The notes under the pieces: model-generated | What the model was told of the DNA's origin: nothing | Databases searched by the model: none | Seen by the model: the letters and a program-made list of their open reading frames with translations, nothing else | NCBI GenBank assembly: GCA_947594675.1 | Contig: CANQEF010000060.1 | Location: forward strand, 1-7,045 | From: an uncultured Bacilli bacterium | GTDB taxonomy: Bacteria; Bacillota_I; Bacilli_A; RF39; UBA660 | Length of the DNA stretch: 7,045 bases | Reading direction: 5' to 3' | In this document: in pieces, positions 6,435 through 7,045 of the stretch | Numbering within the stretch: position 1 is the stretch's first letter | Layout: each line of letters begins with the position of its first letter | Translations under genes and position numbers: made by a program

Positions 6435-6459
6435 CAAAAGAAAAAGACTTTTAGTCTTT
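6435..6459 (-). terminator. Short hairpin terminator of the four-helix-bundle gene
   Basis: On the minus strand AAAGACT-AAA-AGTCTTT (6459-6443) forms a 7-bp stem with a 3-base loop. It is followed by a T-rich tail (TTCTTTT). Its left arm overlaps the TAA of the upstream gene (6460-6458). The stem is weak (two G-C pairs), so termination may be partial and some ylmH expression could come from read-through. Confidence 0.5.
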
Positions 6460-6892
6460 ATAAAAATTTCTTCAGTTTTTCAACAGCTTTTTCTTGCATT
6501 TTAATATACTCATCAATTAAAGAGATAATTCTTTTATCAGCCTCTTTATTATTAAGGAGCTTTCTACCTTCTATTATTCCCATATTTGTTCCTTGCAATA
6601 ATAATTCTGCTAATTTAGAAGTTGAACTATCAGTAATTGTTTTCATTTGAACGGTATACCAAGTCATTACTTTATTAGCAGTGGACGTTTCATGAGGCTC
6701 TTTTGAACTATAATCTGGATAAATTTCTTCAATTTCTTCGGCTATCTTTTTATAATCATCATATTGTTTTTCTAATACTTCTTGAAATATTTTATCATCA
6801 ACTTTATCAAGAACATAATTTAAAGCATCCATTCCCATAAAACAACCTTTACTAAGCTCATCTAAAACATCGGCATTTTTTGTAATTTTCAT
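6458..6892 (-). CDS. Small four-helix-bundle protein (DUF2383/ferritin-like), function unknown
   Basis: The start is set at ATG 6892, giving 144 residues, because AAGGGAGGA (6907-6899) lies six bases upstream; an in-frame ATG at 6940 would add 16 unlikely residues. The protein is almost entirely helical, rich in Lys/Glu, and has no signal peptide or membrane segment. Features: SKGCFMGMDALNYVLDKV (14-31), a KVMTWYTVQMKTITDSSTSK stretch (74-93), LLQGTNMGIIEGRKLLN (98-114), and a C-terminal QEKAVEKLKKFL. The pattern resembles a conserved but uncharacterised Firmicutes family with a ferritin-like or DUF2383/PA2169-type four-helix fold; this is from memory. I see no convincing EXXH di-iron set, so iron storage should not be assumed. 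A possible promoter hexamer TATATT (6937-6932) lies upstream, without a good -35. Confidence 0.82.
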   Translation of the reverse strand: MKITKNADVLDELSKGCFMGMDALNYVLDKVDDKIFQEVLEKQYDDYKKIAEEIEEIYPDYSSKEPHETSTANKVMTWYTVQMKTITDSSTSKLAELLLQGTNMGIIEGRKLLNNKEADKRIISLIDEYIKMQEKAVEKLKKFL

Positions 6893-6960
6893 ACTTTTTC
6901 CTCCCTTAATAGTATTAGTAATAATAAAAAAAATATACAAATATTTAATTTTGAATGATT

Positions 6961-6990
6961 AAAATTGTGGAAAAACTCTACAATTTTTTT
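6961..6990 (+). terminator. Hairpin with T-tail between the divergent genes
   Basis: AAAATTGT (6961-6968) pairs with ACAATTTT (6980-6987). The stem continues inward by G-T, G-C and A-T pairs around an AAAAC loop, making 11 bp. Seven Ts (6984-6990) end it on the plus strand. It is placed one base before the -35 of the next promoter. No plus-strand gene lies just upstream, so it would stop rightward antisense or read-through transcripts, or leftward ones if bidirectional. Confidence 0.6.
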
Positions 6991-6991
6991 G

Positions 6992-7022
6992 TTGACAAAT
7001 CAAGACGGGGGGGGGGTATAAT
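6992..7022 (+). promoter_or_regulatory. Promoter with poly-G spacer, probably phase-variable
   Basis: Perfect -35 TTGACA (6992-6997) and perfect -10 TATAAT (7017-7022) flank a 19-bp spacer. The last ten spacer bases (7007-7016) are all G. Slipped-strand changes in the G-run would alter the spacer length; G8 would give the optimal 17 bp. The promoter reads rightward to a gene whose start is outside the window. Confidence 0.8.
7007..7016 (+). repeat. G10 homopolymer tract
   Basis: Ten consecutive Gs in a strongly AT-rich region, the longest G or C run I see in the window. It lies exactly against the -10 box. Mononucleotide G tracts of this length are typical contingency loci in bacteria. Confidence 0.9.
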
Positions 7023-7028
7023 CTTATT

Positions 7029-7045
7029 ATAAAATAAGGGAATTG
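7029..7045 (+). promoter_or_regulatory. Leader and likely ribosome binding site of a gene beyond the window
   Basis: The predicted transcript would start near 7029. AAGGGA at 7036-7041 looks like a Shine-Dalgarno sequence. The TTG at 7043 is too close to it to be the start, so the start codon is probably a few bases past the window end. Confidence 0.45.

Follow-up and report, generated by a model that had tools for sequence, protein, structure and literature searches.

The DNA analysed here (the window, 7,045 nucleotides of a contig from an uncultured Bacilli bacterium) has 25.4% G+C and 13.5% G, and close to its right end it carries a perfect -35 and a perfect -10 hexamer with a spacer of 19 nt, whose last ten bases are all G (Table 1). 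This arrangement agrees exactly, in sequence and in coordinates, with what a preliminary description of the locus had given. The window extends 23 nt beyond the -10 and stops short of any gene driven by the promoter.

Table 1. Features around the poly-G promoter at the right end of the window.
Feature	Position	Strand	Remark
DUF2383-like gene, divergent from the promoter and not driven by it	6458-6895	-	E 1.5e-5, below Pfam's cut-off
Hairpin followed by Ts, terminator-like	6961-6990 (arms 6961-6971 and 6977-6987)	+	directly 5' of the -35
-35 hexamer, TTGACA	6992-6997	+	perfect match, sequence read directly
Non-G part of the spacer, 9 nt, AATCAAGAC	6998-7006	+	sequence read directly
G10 tract, proposed slippage switch	7007-7016	+	sequence read directly
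-10 hexamer, TATAAT	7017-7022	+	perfect match, sequence read directly
First part of the transcript leader, truncated by the window end	7023-7045	+	resembles leaders of G004 poly-G genes

The longest other run of G or C in the window is of four bases. A first-order Markov estimate gives about 1e-4 expected G10 runs for the window, and G7 occurs as four overlapping matches, all within the G10 tract, against 0.04 expected from 200 dinucleotide shuffles, which upholds the earlier claim that such a run is improbable by chance. Perfect TTGACA-N15-21-TATAAT pairs were seen twice in the window against 0.04 expected; the other pair, at 2314-2340 and with 15 nt between its hexamers, precedes the genes for an ArsR-type regulator and a P-type ATPase. 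The general promoter scan took spacers of 16-18 only and therefore missed the poly-G site, whose spacer is 19; it returned 49 promoter-like sites in the window against 54 expected, so that loose promoter matches in such AT-rich DNA carry no meaning. The Rfam search of the window gave no match. Invertible promoters, as described for Bacteroides, Clostridioides and Mycoplasma in the available part of the source, also exert stochastic control at the promoter (PMC11868660), while the variable part here is a homopolymer. In the surroundings of the promoter (6700-7045) we found no convincing inverted repeats that would point to inversion; the only candidates that span it, two overlapping AT-rich repeats of 9-11 nt with 227-269 nt between their arms, look like chance.

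The hairpin upstream of the -35 has an 11-nt stem, 91% complementary, and folds at -9.3 kcal/mol (z about -3.5). A terminator scan of the window, which needs at least three G-C pairs, found none, this hairpin included. Similar sequence precedes the poly-G promoters of G004, a related genome described below. We considered whether an upstream hairpin is a universal part of these promoters and rejected it, since the frequency of hairpins with z < -2 is uneven across genomes: they precede 16 of 34 tracts in G001, 4 of 6 in G004 and 4 of 4 in G083, and are rare in G003 (1/20), G049 (1/12) and G109 (0/12), with 3 of 23 tracts in G005, G072, G026, G099 and G103 together.

Related loci were collected with the DUF2383-like protein as an anchor. 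They belong to uncultured Bacilli, and the closest ones carry isolate names starting with 'Lapin', French for rabbit, which probably places them in the rabbit gut. The longest nucleotide matches to the window are 71-80% identical, with 80% over 4.7 kb in L004, a locus of G004. Eight genomes (G001 to G007 and G112) were grouped as a single genus; we infer that the window belongs to it (G001 was also classed as a relative from a neighbouring genus of uncultured Bacilli).

Within 80 anchor loci (1.04 Mb) there are three tracts of G8 or longer, all just 3' of TTGACA. Runs of at least nine Gs are present in all 14 genomes behind the first anchor loci, with 1 to 95 nested hits each. All 36 distinct G9+ tracts of G001 were read: 34 lie between TTGAC[A/T] and a -10, each with an ORF behind it, and the remaining two are in, or interrupt, reading frames. 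The tract is exactly G10 in 31 of the 36, and 26 of the 34 promoter tracts have a spacer of 19. Beyond G001, TTGAC-N1-12-G8 occurs in 33 of 98 genomes of the family, where its nested hits number 554 and those of the reversed pattern 6; when the run is set to G9, the TTGAC pattern is found in 63 of 193 genomes of the order (reversed control, 6 hits) and in 27 of 295 of the phylum (reversed control, 2 hits), each of these samples including its own centre genome.

The counts beyond G001 take the -35 as given, and we also chose tracts by their G runs alone. In G001, G004 and G005, 45 of 49 such tracts are preceded by a -35 that matches at 5/6 or better, and two of the four others have no upstream sequence. 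With G9 as the sole criterion, 23 contexts were taken from 14 genomes; 16 of them have TTGAC no more than 17 nt before the tract. Of the seven without it, one begins at a contig start, and some contexts chosen in this way appear intragenic. Over 11 genomes we read 118 tracts, 111 of them with a -35 of at least 5/6. Downstream sequence of 30 nt is available for 101 tracts; a -10 of at least 5/6 follows 70 of these, whereas shuffled flanks would give 13.9. Between the -35 and the tract, both sequence and length vary across genomes; the gap is 0-1 nt in G049 and G103, 3-4 in G072, 5-9 in G005, and 7-10 in the other seven genomes, except for 2 of 34 tracts in G001. The 9-nt gap of the window is the commonest in G001 (30/34) and G004 (6/6). 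On the sequence evidence the poly-G promoters are a genome-wide class, which the preliminary description had missed.

The G run might be a sequencing or assembly artefact, for example two-colour dark cycles called as G, or it might mark a joint made in assembly where the contig ends. The window does end 23 nt after the -10, and a few tracts elsewhere look artefactual: G109 has a G15 that runs into poly-A close to the end of a contig, and in G442 a contig opens with a very long run of Gs. However, the window's tract leads straight to a perfect -10 and then to a leader like those of its relatives, every one of the G001 promoter tracts has an ORF behind it, and named loci with tracts come from two projects, the rabbit 'Lapin' series (L012, L014) and a chicken assembly (L011). 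We regard an artefact as highly improbable.

A second class of tracts, G9-G11, lies within or at the start of reading frames (L089, L090, L211; L092, L093), which suggests translational frame switching. LexA/SOS boxes beside the tracts were also considered; few were seen by eye, and with 3 of 111 tracts having one at no more than one mismatch they are not general.

An insertion element also meets the G tracts in the eight-genome genus. Its ends, GAGRCTGTCYGAGAATG on the left and TTGACAGACAAGC on the right, abut G runs: all ten left ends lie beside runs of 6 to 9 and all five right ends beside G10. GAGRCTGTCYGAGAA occurs ten times in these genomes, always after such a run of 6 to 9, and TTGAC stands within 20 nt of the run before each of the ten left ends. 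The right-end sequence occurs five times, each time followed by two bases and G10, and the element's right end supplies a replacement -35 at the usual 9-nt gap. A single complete copy of about 130 bp is in L180 (contig C33 of G001), and the other sites are L181-L190 and L286-L290. Compared by eye, the two ends agree at 11-12 of 16 positions as an imperfect inverted repeat. No transposase was seen in these stretches, because 9 of 10 end 9 to 114 nt past the left end. A looser end search, which allowed up to three mismatches, brought in one more left end, a variant lying next to a G run (L148); its two matches away from G runs, in L008 and L031, look like chance. The promoters might then have been spread by this element with its TTGACA end, or be its products, and their number would reflect transposition more than selection for switching. 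The contact of all fifteen ends with G runs, and the -35 that the right end provides, fit this. But the sequence from -35 to tract differs from genome to genome, most tracts, including the window's, are without element ends, and the left ends follow TTGAC in every case, as if the element had landed in existing promoters; we therefore consider such an origin very unlikely.

Slipped-strand mispairing would alter the number of Gs between the -35 and the -10, and this number would set the spacing of the hexamers and with it the transcription strength of the gene to the right. We infer such slippage in the living population, and an effect of length on transcription, from the following comparisons. 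Within genomes, promoters whose flanks are identical at 85% or more (paralogous sites, one genome per species) differ in tract length in 55 of 211 pairs, namely 9 of 10 pairs in G026, 35 of 160 in G001, 8 of 16 in G003 and 3 of 6 in G109. None of the 15 pairs in G049 or of the 4 in G004 differs, and pairs this similar are absent from the five remaining genomes. Tracts range from 9 to 14 Gs in G026. This suggests, at the level of sequence, that the tracts change faster than their flanks. Spacers peak at 19 (53/101), followed by 20 (19/101), a histogram partly conditioned by the -10 being searched at 15-22 only, and a permutation test gives no support for selection on total spacing between genomes (p 0.12).

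The available part of one report on Treponema pallidum describes, for tp0126, a poly-G likewise located between the -35 and -10, with 17 nt as the optimal spacing (PMC7864442). The earlier argument from spacing fits this case: a G10 tract (19 bp) is expected to be weak, and G9 or G8 (18 or 17 bp) to be stronger. As most spacers here are at 19, most of these promoters would be weak and would need the loss of about two Gs. Loss of mismatch repair as a cause was rejected: MutS was found in 94 of 98 family genomes, over the cut-off in 90, and with MutS so widespread slippage would not be boosted in this way.

Alternatively, the tract could be practically fixed, as a constant spacer or a DNA-structure element that keeps expression weak without frequent switching. 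In some genomes lengths are tightly clustered, with the 31 of 36 tracts at G10 in G001 and 11 of 12 at G8 in G049. Against a fixed tract stand the length differences between close paralogs, above all in G026, and Treponema tprL, whose poly-G lengths of 7 to 11 were measured within isolates and vary in vivo, according to the accessible portion of the same report (PMC7864442). A fixed tract is in our view unlikely.

The genes behind these promoters may mostly serve the cell surface. An N-terminal hydrophobic segment is present in 91 of 95 downstream ORFs from 11 genomes; in the background, ORFs taken from the anchor loci, 233 of 876 have one (Fisher p 2.5e-42). This value overstates the difference, because paralogs depend on one another, the TTGAC pattern was used to sample 8 of the 11 genomes, and the background ORFs were selected by a slightly different rule. 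These predicted segments suggest surface exposure of the products. The exceptions include a cation ATPase behind a G049 tract and two G083 proteins without the N-terminal segment. Domain families were taken from 20 scanned downstream proteins. Gp10_C was found in proteins of G004 (E 3e-32 and 1.5e-27), and Peptidase_M73 (camelysin) in proteins of G049 and G072, one of them with a concanavalin-like domain; the NCBIfam TasA/BsaA matches of these Peptidase_M73 proteins are far below the cut-off. Other families are SpaA (G109), LRR (G083), DUF6273 (G103) and a Listeria-Bacteroides repeat (L014). An FGE-sulfatase match just below the cut-off was obtained in one of two scanned G005 proteins, and the scan of three G001 proteins gave no match.

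For the window's own gene, the flanks of the tract offer a guide. Scored against 158 tract contexts, they match three G004 promoters best (45, 43 and 43; median 8). Of the three proteins behind these promoters, two were scanned and both carry Gp10_C. A fourth G004 promoter scores 35, and the membrane segment at the start of its ORF, which the contig end cuts short, is of another kind. Judging from these relatives, the truncated gene at the window end most likely encodes a protein with an N-terminal membrane segment; because both scanned proteins behind the nearest promoter matches carry Gp10_C, our best guess is that it is probably a member of the Gp10_C-domain family. The products of L160, L157 and their relatives combine an N-terminal membrane segment with a phage baseplate Gp10 C-terminal domain, and 6668 database proteins match the L160 product at E <= 0.001. 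The structure model of a Gp10_C-type protein is weak (pLDDT 68).

Taken with the recurrence of the promoters (34 in G001), the hydrophobic N-termini of 91 of 95 downstream ORFs and the 55 of 211 differing paralog pairs support the preliminary description, which had proposed a phase-variable promoter, probably of a surface gene. We hold it very probable that the window's site is a promoter made phase-variable by poly-G slippage, one of a family of promoters in this lineage that mostly drive proteins with membrane segments, and that the gene cut off here most likely encodes a protein of this sort.

The mechanism itself is already known. In Neisseria meningitidis porA, a poly-G between the -35 and the -10 changes the level of a surface protein as its length changes (PMC3639595). 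The window's promoter is like porA in having the poly-G in this spacer; unlike porA, a single gene of a Gram-negative pathogen, such promoters number 34 in one low-GC uncultured Bacilli genome, G001. Treponema differs in belonging to another phylum and in that the tprL poly-G spans part of the -10, and the available portion of that source makes no link with retroelement variation. Slippage switching, as proposed here, is described in Gram-positives for the pili of Bifidobacterium breve, a gut commensal in which a homopolymer switches a surface product (PMC9187656), and for mga of group A Streptococcus (PMC11868660), although the mga tract is within the regulator gene and not in a promoter spacer. 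These comparisons go as far as the accessible parts of the cited sources. Among the titles and beginnings of abstracts listed from the open-licence PMC literature (mostly the top 7 to 15 per search), we found no description of the mechanism in such a lineage or on such a scale, of poly-G spacer promoters in gut Bacilli, or of their coupling with diversity-generating retroelements (DGRs).

In the relatives the two occur together at some genes, with no DGR visible in the window. A reverse transcriptase search, with a broad family that covers more than DGRs, gave matches in 15 of 22 genomes, 14 of them over the cut-off, and repeat pairs with adenine-specific mismatches are present in G001, G004, G005 and G006. 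Compared over their last 400 nt with eight templates, seven of 43 poly-G-driven ORFs (G001, G004, G005) reach a match of at least 70% to one of them. In four of them the mismatches fall almost only at template adenines (23/24, 21/24, 19/20 and 16/16; for the 19/20 ORF the template sits on another contig), and three are less clean (21/36, 19/35 and 13/19); adenines make up 25-30% of the templates. A reverse transcriptase is near the repeats in the cassettes at G001 C1:101-114 kb and G005 C12; the match at G001 C22 contains stops, and the search of G001 C1:48-58 kb found none. Nine ORFs with a variable repeat were followed upstream. Three are directly behind a poly-G promoter, and a further one comes second after such a promoter. 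DGR variable proteins stand behind poly-G promoters in G001 and G005 (L207, L161, L176, L221). L208 has an ordinary TTGACA-18-TATAAT (by eye), and the 3 kb before it contain no G run of six or more; none precedes L222 either, in the 354 nt available upstream on its contig, and three of the nine are cut by contig or locus ends. A self-overlapping AT-rich pair in L147 that passed the repeat filter, and short pairs of L169 and L173 against L176 with 6 of 7 mismatches at A, were taken as chance.

The DGR variable proteins TaqVP and Mtd are comparable in that some of the poly-G-driven proteins carry C-terminal repeats that vary almost only at template adenines; unlike these, some of the targets here are additionally behind a putative switch promoter. 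For P0121, which is 98% identical to a G005 target, the AlphaFold2 model has a pLDDT of 83 and a pTM of 0.74. Its fold search gave three PDB matches at E <= 0.001, all of them TaqVP (best E 1e-9), with a TM-score by target of only 0.43-0.47 and an rmsd of 11-12; the next match is the TasA fibre (E 0.0076).

The data are compatible with two layers of surface variation in a clade of uncultured gut Bacilli, a scheme to which we give slightly less than an even chance. Dozens of surface genes would be controlled by poly-G slip promoters, most often in the weak 19-bp state, with few of the genes on in each cell; some would be hypermutated by DGRs as well; and the insertion element would target the G tracts and rebuild the promoter with its own -35. 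If so, gut bacteria with reduced genomes, known only from assemblies, hold a large set of switchable promoters. A count of the Gs in shotgun reads would show the state of each promoter, giving the on/off state of the surface repertoire from metagenomes, and the overlap with retroelements would make it testable whether bacteria make variants silently and expose few at once.

Spread of the promoters by viruses was also considered and discarded: a strict scan of IMG/VR with perfect TTGACA and TATAAT gave five stretches. Three of them have 51-54% G+C, one has 38% and one (L229) has 33%, and L229 shares the promoter layout of the window.
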